From: Asterias amurensis
Taxonomy: Eukaryota > Echinodermata > Asteroidea > Forcipulatida > Asteriidae
DNA length: 64,000 nucleotides
Assembly (NCBI RefSeq): GCF_032118995.1
Contig: NC_092651.1
Span: 27,928,938 to 27,992,937 of the forward strand
Direction of reading: 5' to 3'
Shown: positions 12,993-55,736 of the stretch, piece after piece
How positions within the stretch are numbered: position 1 is the first letter of the stretch
How the letters are laid out: each line of letters opens with the position of its first letter
The notes under the pieces: model-generated
The model's input: the letters and a program-made list of their open reading frames with translations, nothing else
What the model was told of the DNA's origin: nothing
Database searches by the model: none
Translations under genes and position numbers: made by a program

Positions 12993-13190
12993 CAAGGTTG
13001 TAGCTAGGGCAAATTGAATGCCAGCTAATTTTGTCGGTCAAGGGGCAGAGCCTCGGAATTTGAAGGGTATAGTTTTTGATTATTATTGGTTTGATGATTT
13101 ATATGAGGTCCCAAAGCTGTCTTCTACCCATTTAGTGACAGAGTCATTGCCAGAGGCAAAAACATTAGCAGGAGAGCCACATAGCATGTA
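12993..13190 (+). mobile_element. isolated end of the CAAGGTTGTAGCTA transposon family
   Basis: Begins CAAGGTTGTAGCTAGGGCAAATTG and continues ATGCC-GCTAATTTTGTCG, matching the inverted end at 35779-35819. No partner end was found to the right; the foldback element at 13201 lies immediately downstream and may have inserted into it. Confidence 0.5.
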
Positions 13191-13200
13191 TAGAGAAAAC

Positions 13201-14095
13201 TATGGTGGCCCCGAAGGGACATTGCATAACGCAAACGTGTGCGCACACATATGCAATGTCGTGAAACAAATCGCGAATATATGCGCACACATATACAATA
13301 TCGTGAAACAATTCGCGAATATGTGCGCACACGTATGCAATGTCGTGAAACAATTCGCGAATATGTGCGCACACGTATGCAATGTCGTGAAACAAATCGC
13401 GAATATGTGCGCACACGTATGCAATCTCGTGAACCAAATCGTGAATATGTGCGCACACGTATGCAATTTCGTGAACCAAATCGTGAATATGTGCGCACAC
13501 GAGTGCGATTTGTTTTGCAATGTCGTGAATTTTATTGCATACCATGTTGCATACCATTAGGATGATGTCATAGTTGTGGATAATTTGTTACTGATCTAGG
13601 GAGTACTGTGGCGCTACAGCAGGCTCCCTCTGTAAAGCATGTGTATACCCAGGAACTTGGCACCAGGCCAAGGACGACCACACGCCTCGCTTGCCTCACA
13701 ACAAAGACTTCTGCTGCAATGACTACCGCTTATCTCACTGTTGGAAAGAAACCCCCCAGATCATTAGACATTTTATTCAAAGGTATGCAACATGGTATGC
13801 AATAAAATTCACGACATCGCAAATAATATTCGCAGACGTGTGCGCACATATTCGCAAATTGTTTCACGACATTGCATACGTGTGCGCACATATTCGCGAA
13901 TTGTTTCACGACATTGCATACGTGTGCGCACGTATTTGCGAATTGTTTCACGACATTGCATACGTGTGCGCACATATTCGCGAATTGTTTCACGACATTG
14001 CATTCGTGTGCGCACATATTTGCGAATTGTTTCACGACATTGCATACGTATGCGCACACGTTTGCGATATGCGATGTCCCTTCAGGGCCACCATA
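13201..14095. mobile_element. complete 895-bp foldback element with 42-bp repeat arms
   Basis: The ends TATGGTGGCCC (13201) and GGGCCACCATA (to 14095) are inverted repeats. The host word GAAAAC stands on both sides (13195-13200 and 14096-14101) as a 6-bp target-site duplication. Each arm is a tandem array of a 42-bp unit containing TGCGCACACGTATGCAATG and TCGTGAAACAATTCGCGAAT, about seven units on the left (13230-13520) and about six on the right in inverse orientation (13830-14070). The arms end inward with matching sequences (TGCATACCATGTTGCATACC at 13537). A unique centre of about 220 bases (13560-13780) carries no clear gene. The arms are open in several frames because 42 is a multiple of three; those frames are not genes. 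This architecture is that of foldback-type DNA elements. Confidence 0.88.
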
Positions 14096-14201
14096 GAAAA
14101 CACTTGTATATAAGGGCCAAATAATTGAAATATCTGGACTTTAGCTTTTAAGGGGCAAGGCAGTTTTGCCTTTGCAAGACTTATTCCACGCACCATTAAA
14201 G

Positions 14202-44376: not shown

Positions 44377-46305
44377 AGCAATAGAACAATTAATAATGTA
44401 CATGGCAAATTGGCAATACAACGACAAGAATATCGCAACCAATGTAAAGTAGTTAGGAATTTGATCAACCAGGCAAAGATCATCCATTATTCATCTCAAG
44501 TACAAGAATCCTCAGGAGATCAAAAGAAGCTCTTCAAGATAATTGGTAAGTTGCTGCTCAAACCCAAAACCCCTGTCCTTCCATCCACCTACAATGACCA
44601 GGACTTAGCAAATGAGTTCCAGAAATTCTTTGTCACCAAGATTTCAGACATCCGCTCATCATTTTCATCAGTCCCTTACAACGTGCCGCAGACATTGCCA
44701 CAACTTCAACCAGAGTGTAGACTATCTGTGTTTGAGCCTGCCACTGTTGATGAGATTCAAAGGGTTATTATGAAATCTCCTTCAAAATCCTGTGAGCTGG
44801 ATCCAGTATCAACATCCATGATAAAGCAAAACATTGATATATTTGTACCCTACATCACTAAGCTTGTAAATGAATCTCTCAGTTCCGGTTGTTTCCCCGA
44901 TAGCCTCAAAGTTTCCTACATCAGGCCGCTCATCAAGAAACCAAACCTGGACAAGGAGATATTCAAAAACTACAGACCGGTTGCAAACTTAAAATATCTT
45001 GGAAAAGTCATCGAACGAGTAGTGTCATCACGTATTTCTGATCACATTCATACTTTCAACCTGTCCGACGTGTTCCAGTCAGCATACAAACCTTTCCATG
45101 GGACCGAGGCTGCACTAGTCCGTGTGAGCAACGATATTCTCTCTTCTATGGACAATGGTAACCTTACAGCACTAGTCCTGCTAGACTTGAGTGCTGCTTT
45201 TGACACTGTTGATCATAACATCCTTCTCTCTCGGCTCCAGAATCACCTTGGCATAGAGGACACAGCCCTAGCATGGTGCAAATCGTATCTCCACAACAGA
45301 ACTCAGCATGTATGTATTGGCACTGCGATATCCGACCCTGTTGTTTTGAACTACTCTGTGCCACAGGGGTCGGTACTCGGCCCGCAGTGGTTTACGCTGT
45401 ACACTTTACCGATTCGTGACATCATCCTCAAATTTAATCTGAATTACCATGTGTACGCAGACGACACTCAGCTATACATCACGTTTAAATCTTCTCAAGA
45501 AAACGCCAATGCATCTATTGCAAGACTTGAGAAATGCATCCAAGAGATTCGACGTTGGACACAACAAAACTTCCTGAAGTTAAATGATGATAAGACAGAG
45601 TTCCTTTTATTTGGGTCACGTCAACAGTTAACTAAGGTTTCAGTGCCATACATCTCCATCGGTGATGCTCGGATAGCTCCCTCGCTGAAAGCTCGGAACT
45701 TAGGGGTTATTTTTGATTCATCGATGACACTTCAGCCACACATCAACAACATTGTTCGTTTATCATCATATCACATCAGGAATATAGGTAAGATTCGCAA
45801 GTACTTGGACAAAAGTGCCACTGAAAAGGTCATTCACGCATTTGTTACTTCTCGTCTTGACAACGGCAATGCTCTTCTCTACAGTCTTCCTAACAACCAG
45901 ATTTCCCGACTTCAACGGCTCCAAAATACTGCTGCCCGCATTGTGACACTGTCTAAAAAATCCTGTTCTATCACCCCCATTCTGAAACAACTACACTGGC
46001 TCCCTATCTCTCAACGAATCATCTTCAAGCTGATGCTCATTGTCCACAAAGCTCTAAATGGCAAGGCTCCCCACTATATTTCTGAACTGCTTCAAGTTTA
46101 CACTCCATCAAGGAATCTTCGATCAAGTTCCATGCTTCTCCTCATTGAACCCAAGTCTCGACACTCATGGGGTGACAGGTCTTTTTCTGTAGCCGCGCCA
46201 CGCATCTGGAACTCTCTACCACTTAATCTTCGATCTTGTCTTTGTACCGCAAAATTCAAGTCTCTTCTCAAAACTTATCTTATGTCACAGGTTTTCAATG
46301 ACTAA
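44377..46305 (+). CDS. LINE reverse transcriptase (L2/Crack type), 5' truncated but open
   Basis: ORF2 C-terminal part of a non-LTR retrotransposon that copies RNA into DNA at a nicked target. The frame is open for over 630 codons. In order it shows the pre-RT region (NLINQAKIIHY near 44470), FQSAYKPFHGTEAALVR near 45075, LVLLDLSAAFDTVDHNILL near 45170 with the first catalytic Asp, VPQGSVLGP near 45360, YADDTQLY near 45450 with the catalytic pair intact, and the thumb NFLKLNDDKTEFLLFG. The conserved C-terminus (SITPILKQLHWLPI, GDRSFSVAAPRIWNSLPLNLR) ends at a stop at 46303. The endonuclease domain is absent because the copy is truncated on the 5' side near 44377; the first ATG-like start is not biologically meaningful. 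Intact catalytic residues and lack of stops suggest a fairly young insertion. The 3' end carries a TAT microsatellite tail. Confidence 0.93.
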   Translation, partial: SNRTINNVHGKLAIQRQEYRNQCKVVRNLINQAKIIHYSSQVQESSGDQKKLFKIIGKLLLKPKTPVLPSTYNDQDLANEFQKFFVTKISDIRSSFSSVPYNVPQTLPQLQPECRLSVFEPATVDEIQRVIMKSPSKSCELDPVSTSMIKQNIDIFVPYITKLVNESLSSGCFPDSLKVSYIRPLIKKPNLDKEIFKNYRPVANLKYLGKVIERVVSSRISDHIHTFNLSDVFQSAYKPFHGTEAALVRVSNDILSSMDNGNLTALVLLDLSAAFDTVDHNILLSRLQNHLGIEDTALAWCKSYLHNRTQHVCIGTAISDPVVLNYSVPQGSVLGPQWFTLYTLPIRDIILKFNLNYHVYADDTQLYITFKSSQENANASIARLEKCIQEIRRWTQQNFLKLNDDKTEFLLFGSRQQLTKVSVPYISIGDARIAPSLKARNLGVIFDSSMTLQPHINNIVRLSSYHIRNIGKIRKYLDKSATEKVIHAFVTSRLDNGNALLYSLPNNQISRLQRLQNTAARIVTLSKKSCSITPILKQLHWLPISQRIIFKLMLIVHKALNGKAPHYISELLQVYTPSRNLRSSSMLLLIEPKSRHSWGDRSFSVAAPRIWNSLPLNLRSCLCTAKFKSLLKTYLMSQVFND

Positions 46306-46433
46306 TTTTGTTGTGTCTGTTTTTCTTTGTGTTGTGTTTTTGTTTTGTTTTGTTTTGGTTTACTGCGCCTTGAACACCCAGCAGGGTGGATATGTGCGCA
46401 TTACAAGTCTTATTATTATTATTATTATTATTA
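46306..46433 (+). mobile_element. LINE 3' UTR and (ATT)n tail
   Basis: About 100 bases of T- and G-rich 3' UTR (containing GCGCCTTGAACACCCAGCAGG) end in a TTATTATTA run of about eight units at 46408-46433. Short microsatellite tails instead of poly-A are usual for L2/CR1-type LINEs, so this marks the insertion's 3' border. Confidence 0.85.
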
Positions 46434-46559
46434 TGGCAGATTTAATACAATTCAAATAAAAAACCCTAAGATTATAGCTACCGGAAGTTTGATGACTGGG
46501 TTTGATGTGCTGGTTACACAGTGTCTCTTCTAAATTGACGTCTGGCACTAGATTGGTAT

Positions 46560-46785
46560 ATCTGGGGAGAGCCTCAAACCTGGCATGGGTTTAGGCCATC
46601 TAGGAAGAGCCTCAAAACCGGGCGTGGGTTTTAGGCCATCGGAGCGCAAGAACCGGGTGGTTCAAACCATCAACTTGAAGGAGAAAGAGCACAGTTTTGA
46701 CTGACTGTCTCTGTGCAAGAACTGGTTGGTTTAAACCATCAACTTGAAGGAGAAAGAGCACAGTTTTGACTGACTGTCTCTATAA
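46560..46785. repeat. tandem duplications (about 45 bp x2 and 69 bp x2)
   Basis: GAGCCTCAAA-C-GGC-TGGGTTT-AGGCCATC is repeated twice (46569, 46610). Next is a 69-base unit with AACCATCAACTTGAAGGAG at 46665 and 46734. The second pair is nearly identical. Confidence 0.85.
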
Positions 46786-48639
46786 CTGGAATATGGCTGA
46801 AACACCAATACTGGACAATGGTGTGGCCGACAGTTGGAGTGGTGACACCCATCAATGTATGAGTTGGGCAGAGCCCCTGGCTGACTCAGTGGTGGCGGAG
46901 TGATGAGTGTAACCCAGCAAGAGGCATACCCAGTATTTTATAGGCTAGAAACATCACACAATGCAGTGGGCAATTATACTAAACATTGTGTCCACTGCAC
47001 ATTAACAATAAGTCTGGAGTGTCAACACATTAAAGACACAATGTTACATTATGACCGTTGCATAACATCTAACAATACACATTGTGAAATAGAGTGACCT
47101 GTTTTGCCAAATACCACAGATGTTCTTAAAGACCAACAAATATGTCATAACAAAAGGAACAGGATAAGGGGGAGAGAAAGCCCATCTGTAACACTTTGTT
47201 CAGAAATGTCATTCTCGCAATGTTTTCTTTGTTTCTTCATCTCTTCATTTCATCCTCTAGTTTGCTGTTAGCTTCCCCCAGCCTTAAATAAGACAAGCTG
47301 ATTGCCACGATGTACATGTCTTTTAACAAGTTGCTTCTTGACAACTGAGTATGTCTGAAGTGTCCTAAGTGTCAAAATTACAGTGTCAACGTTTACTCTG
47401 GCGTGGTCACCTGCATCGTTGGTTATGCATAACCACCAATTTACTTCCATGATCTGATTAATGATCTAAGCATTCTTGGTCATTAACACAACAATTTTTA
47501 CTTTTTTCTTCACTTTTTGCTGACCATGGAGCGACTCCTTAATGTTTGTTTTTAGTTGCTTGGTGAGGACTGCTTCAATTTCTGAAGTACTTGCTATGAA
47601 CATGAAGCATGAACATGAAGCACTTTTATCAATTACTGAGCAATTTACAGATGGCTTCTTAAATCTGACTGGATTGAGCATTGCCAGGGGCTTACTCAGT
47701 AGCTGGCTGACACTCCTCCACTTCATCTTCCCACTCTTGGTAAGGACAGAATCCAAAAATTTCAAATTGCTCACATCAAGTTACTTATAAGCTCATTCAA
47801 AGCAGATAACTGTTACGAGTAAGATGCCACCTCAATCATCAAATTCGGCCAAGGGAAAGATGAGATATGGATTTTTAAGTAATAACGGTTTACTGGATCG
47901 AAGCAATTTTTTCTAATAGGGAACATCGTCCTTTTAAGGGTACATTATCTTGTATAAAGCACTAGTAAACACACAAACAAAAAAGTAAACAAATTAAACC
48001 AACAATAATTCAGTATGTACAATTCAGCTTTATTTCCAAATTTCACCCGACTATAGCAGATCCATGTACAAAGCTGATCACATGGTTTGTTTTTGTGATT
48101 TGATATTCGAAACAATGCTGTTGCCATGGAAACAAAGGTAAATATCAATTTAATTAAAATGTTGTTTATTTATGATTTACAGGGTACATTGAAATGTAAG
48201 AACCTGGTCAGTGGATTTTAATACAATTAGACAACATGTTTACAAAATACCAACTTCTCAACCCTACAAATATCCGAGAAATAGTGCATTGAATTTGTTT
48301 ACTACTTTTTTACAGAACTTTTTCAACAGTAAATAATGTTGTAAACAAATTGAAGTGGTTGTATAAACAAAAGTGTTTAAGGTATAAACCTGAGATTTCA
48401 CAAACTTATCAATCAAAGCACTAGCAGTTTAATAAAGTAAATAAATCATGGTTTTGTAAATTTGAACAATGTATGGTTGCCATGGAAACAAACGAACCAA
48501 ATTATGTAAACAAACTTGTATAAATTTTCATCAACAATTATGGTTTTACTAATTTGTTATAGCCATGTGGTTACAAATGTTACAGGAAACAACATGTGTT
48601 CATATAAAGATCGAATCCCACCACAATTTAAAGTTATCT
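46786..48639. other. unassigned non-coding DNA
   Basis: A minus frame at 47466-47774 (about 100 residues, basic C-terminal part) and another at 47268-47450 might be exon relics but show no recognisable block. Otherwise AT-rich with GTTTACAAAATAC-like phrases repeated around 48230-48520. Confidence 0.35.
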
Positions 48640-49958
48640 CAGGTTTATACCTTAAAGACTCATCGAAACAAGAGACCTCACAAGATAAAAATCTGGACAA
48701 TTTGTCCGCATGGTCATCTGTAGTTAGTTCTTCCAAAAATGAATTAAGATGGGTGAAGTGTCAGCACATATCAAGGATGTGACCAGGTTTTTCAATCAGT
48801 CGTCGGAGTGGAGCAGTTGTTAGTTTGTTCAAGATACATAAACCTTACAGCCAGCAAGAAAGGTAGGAACTTGAACATCAGCATAAACTGCTTTCATAAG
48901 ACCATTTGGTTGTCCATGTGTGTTTTCCCAAAAATCAAAAACCTGGTTATAGAAAAAAGGTACATCCACCTAATAAGAACACAATATTAAATCTGTTTCC
49001 CCGAAAGTTCTGAAGATACCGTTTGGTGTAGTTTAAATTGGTTAAATACGTATTCCAGGAACGGTAGCAACCAGACTTTTCATCTGCTCCTTTGGCTAGA
49101 GCTTTGCACATGGTGCATACCAAACGAATTGACCCACTTTCATTCCCAAAAACATTATCCCCTGGTACTTCACATGCTCCAACTTTTCTATCTCCTAAAT
49201 GGGAACTTTCAAACTTCTTGAATGATTTGGTAATTGTTTCTGCCATGGATATTAAGAGGTGCAAACCGCAAAAAAATTATTCATTGTTATTAACTTGTCT
49301 TTTGCCTACTGAGAAAAACTTTCCCACCCGTCTTTATATTTTGGGAGGCATTCGTCCCTAAAGTCTTTAAGAATATTGTTAAATTTAGTTTCGGTAGCTG
49401 TTCTGTCGCTCATTGTATTCTTTATCTGACAGAGGATTTTCATGCCAGGTTCCTCATGTGTGTTAGCTGGTGTGAGATTATTACAAACTGTTGTGATGTC
49501 ATTAAAAGTATGTCTTTGAATGTGGTGATTGTGTCGTCTGCTGATTCAGAAACCATTTCCCTTAAACCCAAAACGTATGAATCATTATTTTTGTCTGTAA
49601 CGGTGTATGTCATGTAGTTGTTGCCCACTCTGGGGGTTTCATTGGTGGCCAGGGTCAAATTTTTGCTGGTCCTTACACCCTTTAGTTGGGACTGGGCCAA
49701 GATGAGGCGCTCCTCGTTCATGTGGGCCACAGTTCTCCCACATGGCACCTTTTCTGCTGTTAAATTAATAATACCCAAAACAGATTTCATGGCGGGACCA
49801 ATATTTTCGAACGAAATATGGAGCGAAAGCAGTTCATACACACATAGCCTGGCTTTATCTGTGTAGGTCCAGTGACCACTTTTCAACTCCATTAACTCTA
49901 CTACAGTCTTTTTGTGCTTTGACTCCTCCAGTTCTTCTTTTAGCTTGGCATTTGCCAC
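48640..49958 (-). pseudogene. Academ-like DDE transposase (copy C), catalytic part
   Basis: From 49958: helical start LKEELEESKHKK, CVYELLSLHISFENIG near 49840, NLTLATNETPRVG near 49660 (the position of the first catalytic Asp is Asn here) and YVLGLREMVSESADDTITT. In other frames follow ILCQIKNTMSDRTATETKFN near 49420, which holds the second catalytic Asp, and FFCGLHLLISMAET near 49260. The frame then opens again: GNESGSIRLVCTMCKAL near 49130 (candidate catalytic Glu), FRGNRFNIVFLLGGCTFFLY near 49000, and finally, after a frame change, LMKAVYADVQVPTFLAGCK and RRLIEKPGHILDM to about 48640. The last C-terminal block seen in copies A and B is missing. Several stops and frame changes make it a pseudogene, but it is the most complete copy of the catalytic core in this window. 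Confidence 0.75.
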
Positions 49959-49989
49959 GTGTAACTCAAGAATGTGTTATTTCTGTTCC

Positions 49990-51008
49990 TTAATCTTTAG
50001 CTAAGGTCTTCTGTTCTCGACTGCTCCAAATCATGCTGCACTTGTAATTCAACTCTTTATATTCCCCCTCCAGCGACCTTTTGCCCATTTTGGCCTTCTC
50101 CAATTGAGTATCCCTTTTGTCCACAAGTTTGTTTAGATCCTTAACTTCCTGCTTTTTCTTCTCAAGTGATTTGACATGATCCCGCTCTCTACGCTTATTG
50201 ACACGTTGCTTATGGGGAGTCGGCCTGCATGTCAGTGTGGCATTCTCTTCCTTTAAAGTTTCATTTTCCAATTTAAGTTGGCCGTATAAAAATTTGGATG
50301 TTGTGTCAGAAGTCCATGCTCTTGGTCCAGTTGGCTTTTTATGAGTTGGTAAATTACATTGTTCATTGTTCCAATTTTCAAGCAATGACTTGTCGCGGTG
50401 GCTGTCCTGAACCATATCTCGTCTCACCTTCGCTAGTTTTGTCCACTGTGAAGTTAAGGCTGCATTGCTAGGTTTTTCGACAACTTCCATCAGCAGTGCT
50501 AACCACTCCTGAACTTGAGACCAAGTTGATGATGTTTCCCGTTTGAGTTGTTTGAGTTGCTGCTCATGTTGGTTGAGTAGTGCATCAGGTTTTTCATTGA
50601 GTCGTCCTGCTTGTAGATCCTTCAACTGGCTTTCAGATAACAGTGCAGGTCCAGGGTTGCTTTCAATATCACCACACTGCATCAATACATCTATCGGCAA
50701 TGTACAATACACAGTGAAGTAGAGTTGAAAAGCATTAAGACTTACTGATGATGGATGGCACTGACAGTCTTGGTAACCAGACGGTGATGGCGCTTGGATA
50801 GGAGGCGTTTGGGCAGCAGGGATGTTGCATGCCATGATCAGCACAAAGCAAGCAATCAGCAAAGTCGGAAGAAATGTGGGTGTATCATCACTCCATTCCT
50901 CATAAGACCTTATCTGTTTCGATGCTTTAGACGATGGCATAGAAAAAGTACCAATACGCTGTCTCCATACTTCTACTGATACTCCCATGGTTGGGTGAAG
51001 AATCCTGG
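49990..51008 (-). pseudogene. Transposase copy C, first coding exon: hydrophobic leader, 2A motif, coiled coil
   Basis: A 332-residue open frame starts at an ATG at 50988 in good context (ACCATGG), just after a pyrimidine-rich TTTTTTCCAG acceptor at 51008. Residues 37-58 (FLPTLLIACFVLIMACNIPA) are a strong hydrophobic segment. Residues 106-114 are GDIESNPGP, an exact match to the D-(V/I)-E-x-N-P-G-P core of 2A peptides, at which ribosomes fail to join Gly and Pro, so two products arise. Downstream residues 115-332 are charged and helical, with a basic patch (KQRVNKRRERDHVKSLEKKK) and heptad-like spacing up to the stop at 49990. The transposase core frame opens 32 bases further on in a different frame. 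I infer that the second 2A product was the transposase. In this copy the link to the core is broken by about one frame change and one stop. Confidence 0.75.
50647..50673 (-). promoter_or_regulatory. 2A-type ribosome-skipping motif (GDIESNPGP)
   Basis: Nine codons in the open frame that starts at 50988 read Gly-Asp-Ile-Glu-Ser-Asn-Pro-Gly-Pro, the consensus core of 2A and 2A-like sequences. The preceding residues (PIDVLMQC) are hydrophobic and helical, as usual for 2A. Separation would fall between Gly113 and Pro114. Activity is inferred from sequence only. Confidence 0.85.
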
Positions 51009-52530
51009 AAAAAAATAAAGGAAAGATTTGAAGTCAAAATATTGAAACAATAACTTATGTCAAAATTATAATTAATCACAAGAAATTAATGTTACGGGGA
51101 CGTCAAATGGAGAACTGTAATCTGAAGGTTTATTCTGAAGACACAGAAACTGATGTTGACAGCGTCTTCGATGAAAAATAATAATGACAAACCCCGTGAA
51201 AAATAGGCAGTATTTCAGGGCGAGGAACCACTAAAAAGAGCTATGTCATAGGTAAATACTATGTCATTATCGCTACATCAATAAAGTAAAGGCAAATGAA
51301 TTTTTTTTTTTTTTGGGGGGGGGGGGTATGCATGTACTTTTCACATTAGAATGAGACGCAATTAAAAGGTTTCGCAGAAATAAACAGCCCGTAAACATGG
51401 AAACAATAAATGTAATAGGGGACTAATTACTTTTTAAAAAATGGGCGTGGCTTCCCGGAAATTTAAAAACAGTGTTCAAACAAAACTAAGTTCAACTATG
51501 AAATTATTAAATATGAACTATGAAAATAATAAACATTGTAGGTCCCTAAAAACATTTTTAAAACAGAGCTTAACTTTGAACATGGCATGGTCACCTTTTT
51601 TTGAGAGAAAAAAATTCTAACAACTTTAGGATTGAGTTGAGATAATGATGGATCATGGAGCATAAAAAATTGATAATTTAATTGTTAATAAAAAATTAAA
51701 TTAAACTAATTTACTAATAATGAATACCCTGCTATCTATTTTTAATAACTGAATTCCAATTAAAGCACATATCTAACCCCCCTGAGGAAGGCCTAACCCA
51801 TCCAACCTCCATCAAACACCGGGCTTCGAGGGCCTTCCGGCCGGCCACGCAGGCCGTCCGGCCGGTCTCAGGCCCGGCCGCTGTCACCTGGCATCAAACT
51901 CTCCCACTGTCACTCGGCGTCACTTAATCAAAAAGTCTTATGATGTTTCTCTTAATAATTTTGACCTGATCTTTCGATTAAACACAGTTACAGGCCTGTA
52001 TTACGATGCCTGATACCCTTAAAATACAATTTAATGTACTCACCTTTTTACAAACGGAAGAATTCGGCGAAAATTTAGTCGATTTTTTGTCAGGTTTTCG
52101 TTGTATCGTTAGAAAAAATCTCGTTGATGATCGCGACGCGGCTTGGTTACAATATTACCCACAATTCATAGCTCTAAGGGGCTTTCCCGCCTGCTCTTCC
52201 AATCATGCGCCGACGTTGCGATGTTATGAATGGGAAAAACGATCAGCTTGGCGCGCATGCACAGTTCGTGGATTCTGTCCCTACTCTTGGCAATAGTTTT
52301 TTGTCCATGCTTCACAGAAGTTGTGGAGAGCCACACATGCCCCAACTATATGTGGGATAGTTTAAGTTTCACTCACATTCTTCCTCAGAAGGCATCTCCA
52401 TCTGTTTTTCAGTCTACCAAACCCATTTTCCACTACCATATGACTTCTACTGTGGACATAATTATACGTTTGTTGCTGATCAGAGGCAACCAGACTAGGG
52501 GGAATCCCCCTCCCCTTACAAACAAATTCT
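51009..52530. other. unassigned non-coding DNA with a GC-rich patch
   Basis: Probably the 5' part of the copy C element and its flank. A T15/G12 homopolymer pair lies near 51301-51327. A GC-rich patch at 51780-51905 (CGGCCGGCC and CCGGCCGG words) stands out from the AT-rich surroundings. No gene recognised. Confidence 0.35.
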
Positions 52531-52539
52531 ACAGAATTC

Positions 52540-53220
52540 TATAAAAAAAAATCTACAGAACTTCTGTAGAGGATTCTATAAAAATTTCACAGAACTGTTT
52601 TATAGAGTTTTTATAGAGTTTTTATAGAGTTTTTATAGAAATATATTTTTAGAAATTTTGCAGAAACTTCGTAGAGTTTTTGTAGAAAAGTGTGGCACTT
52701 TTTTATGCTTTCTTTATAGGTGTTTGTATAGAGGTTGTAACGAGTTTCTTTAGAAAACTTGTCATTCTTCTATGTTTTTCTATAGAATTCCATTGGTTTT
52801 TGTATACAGGTTATAATTATAGAGTTTCTTAAGAAAAATTGTCACTCTTCTATGGTTTTTCTATAGAGTTCTATTGGTTTTTGTATACAGGTTATAATTA
52901 TAGAGTTTCTTAAGAAAAATTGTCACTCTTCTATGGTTTTTCTATAGAATTCTATTGGTTTTTGTATAGAGTTTATATAGTTTCTTTGGTCACTATTCTA
53001 TGATTTTCCACAGAATTCTATGGTTTTTGGAAAGAGGTTGTAAAGAGTTTCTTTAAAAAAACGGTCACTTGCTATGTTCTTTTTTAGAATTTTACTGGTC
53101 TCGAGTAGAGGTTACATAGAGTTTCTTTAGAAAACTTTTCACTTTTCTATAGTTCTTCTATAGAATTATATTGGTTTTTGTACACAGGTATAGAGCATCT
53201 TTAGAAAAATGACCAATCTT
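52540..53220. repeat. satellite of about 81-bp units rich in TATAGAATTCTAT
   Basis: Clear copies at about 52730, 52811 and 52892 (offset 81), each containing GAGTTTCTT, GAAAA-TTGTCACTCTTCTATG, TTTTTCTATAGAATTCTATTGG and TTTTTGTATA. More diverged copies continue to about 53220. The left part (52540-52680) is built of shorter TTTTTATAGAG repeats. Confidence 0.85.
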
Positions 53221-53599
53221 TCCTTGGAAAACTATTTCTCGAAATTGTTTGAAGAGATTACAATACAAATTTCTATGGAGTTCAAATAATAATATTGGCA
53301 CAAACTTGAGTCCAGAAATTGCTGTTTGAGAATGGGCCTTCATGGCTTTTATTAGAGTTAGCGATCGACATGCAATGTTATTAAAATCAACAGATTTACA
53401 GGAAAGAATGGAAACGACATCTGTTCAAAGCGCTGAAGGAAGGAATGAGTATACAATGAGAGTGCTTGTTGTACCATTGCGGGTCAAGACAATACATAAC
53501 TACATGTATGGAAGTGCAAGAGACGTACCGTTCTATAACCAAAATAAAAAACTTTCAAAATCAAAAAGTTTGAGTTTCAAACTATTGGACGTCAAGTTC
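53221..53599. other. unassigned non-coding DNA
   Basis: Nothing recognised. Confidence 0.3.
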
Positions 53600-55736
53600 C
53601 AGTCGTGTCAATTTTGCTTTGTCCTTGAGGTTCATTTTATATTTCTCAACTCTGTCCATGACTTGCCCTCAACAAGTGCTCCCCCTCTTTTCAAAAGGAC
53701 CAAGCGCAGAGTCTTTCCGGGCACTCTTTTTTACCTTAACAATGTCCGCACCTCCTTTTTACCATAAATTGTTCTTGTTTTTTGTCCATTTGCAATATTT
53801 TCTGATCTTTTTTGAAATCGATGCCTGAGGTTTTAGACAGGTTTTTTTTCATTGGTTGTCCACGTCCATGTGAGTGTCTACTATTGTCATCTTCCATTTC
53901 CTGATCTATACAGTCCAGTTCACCTTCCATTGCATCGTCTTCATGGTCCGATTCATCTTCACTGTTGAGGTAGTGACTCGTCCTTTGATAGACTCACCTC
54001 TTCAAGTGTCTTACCCTTAAATTGAGATGTTTTTCCTTCCTGAGCAAGGTTCAAAAACTTGCTCATTTTGGCAAGAAGGAGTGTTTCCATCGGAAGTCGA
54101 TAATATTCACGATGAACTGTCACATCATGGCCCATGTGGTTAGCCAGTTGCTCAAGTTCATTGTCTTTGAGGTCAAGTAGTTGGGAAAGTGTGGCGAGTT
54201 GCTGTCCTAGATTAGTGCACCTGACATTTTCTGGGTGTTTTAGGTGTTGCCACAGACGCAAGTTGGGCCATAACCTGGTATGCCCTGATGGGAGTGGAGG
54301 CACTGTCACTCTCTCTTGAAAACAATTACAGTTTGCCTGCATTGTGCTCGGCAAGAAGGTCCATACTCTCCTGTAAGTGGGGAGTAGTATTGGAACTCCT
54401 CTTCCTCTTTTGCCCCTTACTATAATGAGGGTAAGTCTCTTGAGAGCTATTCTCTCAGGGGCAGTGAGGGACTTCCTTACTTCATCATGGATTGTTTTTT
54501 TGTTTGCAATACTGCCCATGTAGTGTTTAACAGTAAGGAGTTCAACTCTTCCTTTGGACGTCTCCTGTTGTACAGAATGACCTGAGCTAATGTGACTCTT
54601 GCCAGGTCTGTGTACGTAGCATCGGAGAATCCTGCTGCTTTCAAGCTTTCTTCGCTATGCTTTAAGAAAGCATTGAATTTAACGCAGTCCTCAGATAGAG
54701 GGAGAATCTTGGGAGATTTCCAGGATCTCTCTTGCTGTTGACGACGAGCCCCTACAGATACATGAACTTTCCACTCTGTTCTTAACAGATGCAAAAAGTC
54801 ATCTACCATGGACACATTATCACGACTTTGTTGTCAAATATAGTTATTCTTAACAACAGTAGCCAAGTCTTTCAAGGCAAAACCAACCCTTAAAGCGGTA
54901 GAGTACGCATGATAGAATTGGTTACTTTCGTCATAACCAGACAAAGTGAGAGCCGCTTTGACAACATTATCAATGCAGGATGGCACCACTAAGTCCTTTG
55001 CCTGCTCATTGTGCTGCTTGTCTCCTAGAAATTTTAAGCACCTTGGCTAATTTCCTCATCTTTTCCCTGGCCTTATCCCCCCTTCTAACCGAGTTACACT
55101 TGGAAAAGATCCCTATCACTCCTTACAATTAGTGACACCTGATCTCTTTTCATGTCATGGAGGATATTACTTACCTGGAATGTAACATTGAATTTGGTTG
55201 GGATAAGCAACGTCCATTCCTAATGGGGTTATTCCTAAATTGGATGTGTATCTTTGACACATGGACAACTTGATTTGTGCTTCCAGAGGGAAAGGCAGTG
55301 AAAATATCCAAGACACTGGCTGCAGGGCAAATAATCATAACTGTATGCTTCCCCACTCTATTTTCAAGAGGCCTTTTTTGTACTACTAGATCTTGTTTTT
55401 CACACTGATGTACTTCAATGTTATGTGCGTGGTTGCCAAGGTTTGTTATATGTTGCCACTTGCGCCGCCTTTGTTTCAATTCCTCATTTGGGATGGCTAT
55501 AGAGCCTCTACTACAAGAGTCTCTTTGGAATGGAAACGTGTGCAATGGTGCGCAAGTTTTCTTTGTTTGATTTCGCAGTAACAGCAATAATTGCCCTTAC
55601 AAGTATTTACATCAGCAACATACATTTCAGCTGCGTTTGCTGATTTGTTTTTTGTGGGGTGGTTGGTTGACGTGCCGGGCCTGTTTGGGTGTTTACTACA
55701 TGTAGGTTGATTTATCTTTATATAAAAACAAAACAA
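53600..55736 (-). pseudogene. Zinc-finger/tyrosine-recombinase-like gene 1 (Crypton-like), decayed
   Basis: A protein family known to me from fish, coral and echinoderm genomes, related to tyrosine recombinases of Crypton type. From 55736 downward it shows a CCHH finger (NYCCYCEIKQRKLAHHCTRFH) near 55570, RRRKWQHITNLGNHAHN near 55460, a Lys/Arg-rich KMRKLAKVLKISR near 55040 and an α-helical core domain (AALTLSGYDESNQFYH). Then come the stretch LARVTLAQVILYNRRRPKEEL near 54570, VRGKRGRGVPILL near 54400, and the recombinase C-terminal box NLGQQLATLSQLL near 54200 with NHMGHDVTVHREYYRLP near 54100 (candidate GH and nucleophilic Tyr). An acidic tail and a Myb-like end follow to about 53600. In the box the usual Arg before the 'LR' turn is Asn. 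Several frame changes make it a pseudogene. Its neighbour at 57.2-58.8 kb is a relative on the same strand. Confidence 0.7.

Follow-up and report, generated by a model that had tools for sequence, protein, structure and literature searches.

A 2A-like sequence ahead of the transposase core in a decayed DNA transposon of the sea star Asterias amurensis

Mobile elements that bear 2A sequences reportedly include non-LTR retrotransposons of the APE type, described by Odon in 2013, and a systematic survey of eukaryotic 2A sequences is said to have been carried out by Rao in 2025. We know of no DNA transposon with a 2A sequence, and in the available text of the literature on 2A together with transposases or transposons no report of the combination was recognised; an earlier report is possible. 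Viruses, non-LTR retrotransposons and NLRs are the 2A carriers named in the available portion of PMC11512398. In the NLR proteins of sea urchins, a 2A-like signal sequence divides the products between the secretory pathway and the cytosol, according to the excerpt available of PMC4981915. The StopGo consensus is given as (D/G/C/N)(V/I)ExNPGP, and its L-rich upstream classes have (A/S/C)G ending before p12 = D, together with p15 = S (PMC12846837, in the portion accessible).

A 2A motif was identified in a 64,000-nucleotide stretch of the A. amurensis genome (the window) within a transposase-bearing element designated copy C. Like the 2A-bearing APE-type LINEs, which are also present in the same genome, copy C is a mobile element with an N-terminal leader that ends in D(V/I)ExNPGP ahead of an enzymatic ORF, but its enzyme is a presumed DDE-type DNA transposase lying between terminal inverted repeats (TIRs) with a 7-bp target site duplication (TSD), and its leader has no detectable sequence similarity to the LINE leaders outside the core. 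As in the sea urchin NLR proteins, 2A lies near the N-terminus in company with a hydrophobic segment, here putatively targeting; the urchin carriers are host genes with a 26-aa leader, whereas copy C is a transposon with a 113-aa leader (PMC4981915, excerpt). The core octapeptide is shared with viral StopGo/2A as set out in the accessible part of PMC12846837, and the upstream (A/S/C)G-D context agrees by eye, the carriers there being RNA viruses and the carrier here a DNA transposon. The features of copy C and its immediate surroundings are as follows; copy 2 denotes a second copy of the element.

47741..52283, minus strand: whole transposon copy C, 4543 bp, delimited by TIRs and a 7-bp TSD
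52284..52290, minus strand: TSD CCAAGAG, 5' side
47734..47740, minus strand: TSD CCAAGAG, 3' side
52269..52283, minus strand: 5' TIR, TAGGGACAGAATCCA, matching the other end at 14 of 15 positions as read from the alignment (13 of 14 counted)
47741..47755, minus strand: 3' TIR, reverse complement TAAGGACAGAATCCA
52291..52500, minus strand: remnant of a Harbinger-like transposase entered by the element, with a frame across the joined flanks and a stop further upstream
52044..52283, minus strand: putative untranslated exon 1, with an AAAAAG end before the donor GTGAGT
51005..52043, minus strand: putative 5' intron, from GTGAGT to TTTTTTTCCAG
49990..50988, minus strand: 332-codon ORF with 2A, comprising a 113-aa leader and then a product that would start from Pro114
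50821..50877, minus strand: signal-anchor-like hydrophobic segment of the leader, TFLPTLLIACFVLIMACNI, 19 aa, mean Kyte-Doolittle value 2.24
50647..50673, minus strand: 2A/StopGo core GDIESNPGP, identical in copy 2
49990..50649, minus strand: post-2A region, coiled-coil-like, ahead of the transposase core, with a weak Rabaptin-like Pfam match below cut-off
49440..49976, minus strand: transposase core, first part, placed by matches to relatives and alignment
48844..49509, minus strand: further transposase core in broken frames (MSDR, NNFF/FFCGLH, RGNRFNI), placed by tblastn with the L009 core

According to the initial annotation, GDIESNPGP lies in a 332-codon frame that begins at ATG 50988. Translation confirmed this reading: the nonapeptide is encoded by GGTGATATTGAAAGCAACCCTGGACCT at 50673..50647, in an ORF running from ATG 50988 to the TAA at 49992-49990, and the coordinates given were right, the strand (minus) having been left unstated. 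The octapeptide DIESNPGP satisfies the consensus core in both copies, and the preceding VLMQCG, with Asp at p12 and Ser at p15, matches the L-rich class in a by-eye comparison (consensus and classes from the accessible portion of PMC12846837). Across the six frames of the window, the copy C motif is the sole match to [DGCN][VI]ExNPGP and also the sole ExNPGP. Based upon six-frame composition, about 0.00025 canonical octapeptides are expected in the window, and about 2 are expected by chance in the six frames of the genome.

The inverted repeats TA(G/A)GGACAGAATCCA and the TSD CCAAGAG enclose both the 2A ORF and the transposase remains. An 8.5-kb scan (46000-54500), which combined an 11-base inverted-repeat seed with an exact flanking direct repeat of 6 to 10 bp, yielded just one such place, 52283 with 47741. 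With the direct repeat required to be at least 7 bp, one of 200 Markov-shuffled versions of this region contained any such pair. Position 47741 is also, independently of the TIR scan, the exact end of similarity to copy 2 (position 5992 of L011). When the flanks are joined without the element, an open frame runs through the junction and resembles the C-terminus of a transposase, a remnant which we take to be of Harbinger. A genome search for an empty paralogous site with the joined flanks matched just the two flanks themselves and a weak 78% piece elsewhere. Because of the TIRs and TSD, the end of homology with copy 2 and the frame across the joined flanks, copy C is regarded as a minus-strand DNA transposon that holds the 2A ORF. 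The assignment of the motif to a DNA transposon was thereby upheld, the ORF lying within the TIRs and the 7-bp TSD and, in copy 2, in frame with the opening of the transposase.

Upstream of the 2A ORF, a consensus-like donor, AAAAAG/GTGAGT (52043), together with the acceptor at 51005 suggests an untranslated first exon. The putative exon contains three short upstream ATG frames (30, 10 and 4 codons) that precede ATG 50988. That ATG had been described as well placed, which is borne out in copy C by its ACCATGG context but not by copy 2, where it is not conserved; the first ATG in the 2A frame common to both copies is at 50835. The hydrophobic segment starts 69 residues before the core Asp in copy C and 68 in copy 2. 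Downstream, the motif frame does lie upstream of and collinear with the transposase of copy C as had been proposed, although here a net frameshift puts the transposase ORF (49976-49440) in a frame different from that of the 2A ORF. Copy C is broken by a frameshift and stops, and the alignment places an Asn at the position of the first Asp of the presumed catalytic triad of its relatives. Neither the 2A ORF nor the first core ORF gave a Pfam match to a PHD finger, an endonuclease or a reverse transcriptase.

Copy 2 (L011, G000:C6:10174483-10175448) is situated on another contig. Its 2A frame is open through the coiled-coil-like region into HILELQEANAKL, which is aligned with the start of the copy C transposase frame, and its HILELQEANAKLRKELEVSKSKHK aligns with HILELHVANAKLKEELEESKHKK, the opening of that frame. 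Given this continuity, a single ORF most likely ran in the ancestor from the leader through 2A and the coiled-coil-like region to the transposase core. Copy 2 is itself broken by stops and a deletion of the core; beyond the lost core, the 3' part is kept in the same order at 80% identity. The 3' end of the element is retained and the 5' part is absent. In genome searches, which score the best candidates only and make copy counts lower bounds, the 5' part (51580-52283) retrieved its self-match alone, and the 3' stretch retrieved copy C, copy 2 and one 90-base piece outside the element, with no further copies.

Comparison of copy C with copy 2 over 266 gap-free codons gave dN/dS values of 0.47 (NG86) and 0.75 (YN00), a weak indication of purifying selection between the two copies. 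By NG86 the ratio was 0.98 for the codons through NPG and 0.35 for those downstream of it, the leader thus drifting neutrally between the two. The 18 codons of LPIDVLMQCGDIESNPGP hold 0 differences in 54 nt compared with 56 in 798 overall (permutation p 0.017, for a stretch picked post hoc), and the longest identical run, 93 nt, spans both LPIDVLMQCGDIESNPGP and the motif (p 0.042). These values come from a single pair and are modest evidence of selection; since just two loci carry 2A, its conservation rests on one comparison.

Searches with the copy C core found relatives in the same genome, the nearest set comprising L008, L009 and L010. The set of window copy D, L057-L060, consists of four open frames of approximately 972-983 codons, and the near-identity of L057-L059 (>99% over long stretches) suggests recent transposition. 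The two sets are homologous across 447 columns (hhalign probability 98.6, E 5e-16), in a comparison of few sequences with one row assembled from two frames. Relatives share SDET/FDAT, MSDR and HNxxxE motifs, residues of which may fill the D, D and E roles. The transposase had no Pfam family above cut-off and no relative in PDB sequence searches. Among viral and non-animal genome contigs, a single query with the L009 core, which reaches close relatives only, confirmed no relative beyond this genome. Neither hhalign nor blastp supported homology between the post-2A region and the N-terminal portions of L008-L010, a relationship that would have located the Pro close to the start of those proteins. 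Window copy D (62142-60543) is about 95.6% identical to L057, and the ORFs of its family (L057-L059) open with PQPGTSQQLD-like decapeptide repeats whose run length varies between copies.

The 2A motif is present in both loci found of the copy C lineage (2 of 2) and in none of the 13 further loci found for the family, namely copies A, B and D of the window, L008-L010 and L057-L063, 9-10 kb having been read at each of the ten that lie outside the window. Conservation of the DxExNPGP core among copies, raised as a check in the initial annotation, therefore extends to copy 2 but not to the remaining family loci found, and to the extent surveyed 2A is confined to a single low-copy lineage.

Element ends were also compared across the family. 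L057-L059 have the ends TAGGTACGTGACA...TGTCACATACCTA, and two of these elements are flanked by an exact duplication of 7 bp (CATAATT, GCCAAGA). L060 has the ends TAGGTATGTGACA with the TSD TATGATG. An exact 7-bp TSD is thus present in four of five elements (copy C, L057, L058 and L060), that of L059 being inexact. A scan of 14 other stretches for TIRs with an exact 7-bp TSD, using a 10-base seed, gave matches in two, L060 and L061. The L061 pair (GCGGGCTAGTGG with TAGCCCG, 7.7 kb apart) is of other make-up and is suspected to be a chance match, its repeat and flank being near-palindromic. No TIR/TSD pair was found for window copies A, B and D in a relaxed scan.

The transposase had been called Academ-like. 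Academ elements, which are eukaryotic DDD/E transposons as copy C is presumed to be, encode a nuclease or a helicase. Neither an XPG nor a helicase Pfam match was present in the two scanned pieces of copy C, whose decay keeps such an absence from being decisive, or in the scanned ORFs of L008, L009, L010, L057, L060 and L061. The name is contradicted by the one cleanly tested feature, the 7-bp TSD of copy C and of three of its four open relatives, as the accessible text of PMC10045372 gives Academ TSDs of 3-4 bp (AcademX) or 9-10 bp (AcademH). One relative, window copy A (10249-6094, minus strand), does have helicase pieces between the first and second parts of its core (DEAD, E 2.7e-5, below cut-off, 9511-9125; Helicase_C, E 5e-13, 8162-7335), as if a helicase gene lay inside the transposase gene, and these leave the rejection of Academ in some doubt. 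Members of the Dada superfamily have a TSD of 6-7 bp and insert in multicopy RNA genes; the TSD length of copy C would fit, and the target sites observed here differ from one another. With its TA(R)GG-type ends and 7-bp duplications, copy C was matched to no named superfamily.

Other sequences in the window include an ORF with a GIY-YIG domain (63980-63288, minus strand; Pfam E 2e-5), which we take to be probably the end of a Penelope-like element. At 40179-39169 on the minus strand lies a gag-like open frame, 336 codons long, that encodes a CCHC zinc knuckle (Retrotrans_gag, E 1e-6; PNMA, E 1.5e-5, just below cut-off), and a repeat array at 13018-14140, with units such as CAHVCNVVKQFANM, is open in several frames on both strands.

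To place the motif among the 2A sequences of the genome, a D-x-E-x-NPGP codon pattern was searched genome-wide, giving 22 matches, and its reversal gave none. When the pattern was broadened by leaving out the Asp, 61 matches were obtained and 31 in controls, and enrichment is therefore clear for the full core only. According to their contexts, judged by eye, 2 of the 22 matches represent the copy C/copy 2 element, 19 represent LINE-type leaders (L024 being classed by its leader alone), and the remaining match, L015, lies in polar surroundings and probably arose by chance. Pfam was run on 10 of the 22, and a PHD-finger match was obtained in 7 at E up to 0.01, 2 of which fall below the curated cut-off and 3 of which also have an endonuclease domain; L019, L020 and L034 had no Pfam match. 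In the LINE-type leader L019 (G000:C6:20631652), the nonapeptide GDIESNPGP recurs unchanged; some of its codons differ, as does the sequence upstream. The layout of the transposon leader (hydrophobic segment, spacer, 2A) is the same as in many of the LINE leaders. Outside the core no similarity to them was detectable in an ungapped BLOSUM62 comparison of the 16 residues before p10 with 12 LINE-type tails (shuffle p 0.34-0.39). Common descent of the transposon leader and the LINE 2A leaders of this genome is thus unsupported, the likeness being one of layout only.

These matches raise the question of whether the 2A exon is part of an adjacent element, such as a LINE whose 5' leader lies next to copy C by chance. 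LINE fragments are common in the window, and such an origin would agree with the preponderance of LINE-type contexts among the genome-wide matches (19 of 22, many with a hydrophobic segment) and with the PHD and endonuclease domains in those scanned (7 and 3 of 10). However, the ORF lies inside the TIR and TSD bounds, occurs with the 3' part of the element in both copies and, in copy 2, shares a frame with the start of the transposase; it also has no PHD or endonuclease match, and its leader is unlike the LINE leaders outside the core. A stray LINE leader is largely refuted by the element bounds and the frame continuity, and we consider this origin very improbable. Alternatively, the octapeptide may be a chance or non-functional feature of a coiled-coil extension, with the transposase made as a single protein. 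The absence of 2A from all 13 other family loci, with two copies known, would be consistent with this, as would the roughly two canonical octapeptides expected genome-wide and the lack of conservation of the start ATG. A chance origin is at odds with the very low expectation for the window, the full consensus and an upstream context that appears suitable by eye, the identity of the motif in a diverged copy 2, and the resemblance of the hydrophobic leader to that of other 2A carriers, and we judge it unlikely.

A further reading is that 2A was mainly a dual-targeting switch as in the sea urchin NLR proteins, unskipped chains entering the secretory pathway and skipped ones being directed to the cytosol and nucleus. 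This is a refinement of the explanation preferred here, namely that 2A belongs to the transposase ORF and functioned there, and is compatible with it. The switch would agree with the position of the hydrophobic segment relative to the core Asp in both copies and with the urchin precedent (PMC4981915, excerpt); nevertheless, the segment stands away from 2A, unlike in the 26-aa urchin leaders, and the leader drifts neutrally between the copies. We therefore regard such a switch as a possibility that is rather doubtful.

That 2A is part of the transposase ORF and acted as 2A in the ancestor is in our view fairly probable; the lack of conservation of ATG 50988 in copy 2, and the weaker selection estimated by YN00 than by NG86, make it somewhat less so. 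The locus would then represent a decayed cut-and-paste transposon of 4.5 kb, bounded by 15-bp TIRs and a 7-bp TSD, in which a leader ending in 2A had been added at the N-terminus of the transposase ORF. In the intact ancestor, a spliced message would have been read from an upstream ATG, represented by 50988 in copy C, and the ribosome would have released the leader (113 residues in copy C), with its hydrophobic and perhaps membrane-targeting segment, at NPG. Translation would have resumed at Pro, and the coiled-coil region with the DDE transposase would have formed a second, unattached protein able to reach the nucleus. The two products proposed in the initial annotation, a leader and a transposase starting with Pro, are the natural reading of the ORF as predicted. 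Chains that failed to skip would stay tethered to the leader, and the efficiency of skipping could in this way set the transposase dose. By analogy with the sea urchin NLR proteins, skipping may also have spared the transposase from being carried to a membrane by the leader. Roles in dosing or targeting are less likely than 2A function in the transposase ORF as such. The broader proposal that a DNA transposon lineage evolved skipping independently of retrotransposons, with the transposase as the second 2A product and a leader that restrains or doses the enzyme, is offered tentatively, its likelihood being somewhat below even.

If 2A did function in this element, 2A recoding would have reached one more class of genetic parasite, either by spreading to it or by arising there. 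A 2A sequence placed before a DNA transposase suggests a translational way of limiting or aiming the enzyme, and the transposon would provide a natural precedent for the artificial vectors in which a transposase is linked through 2A.
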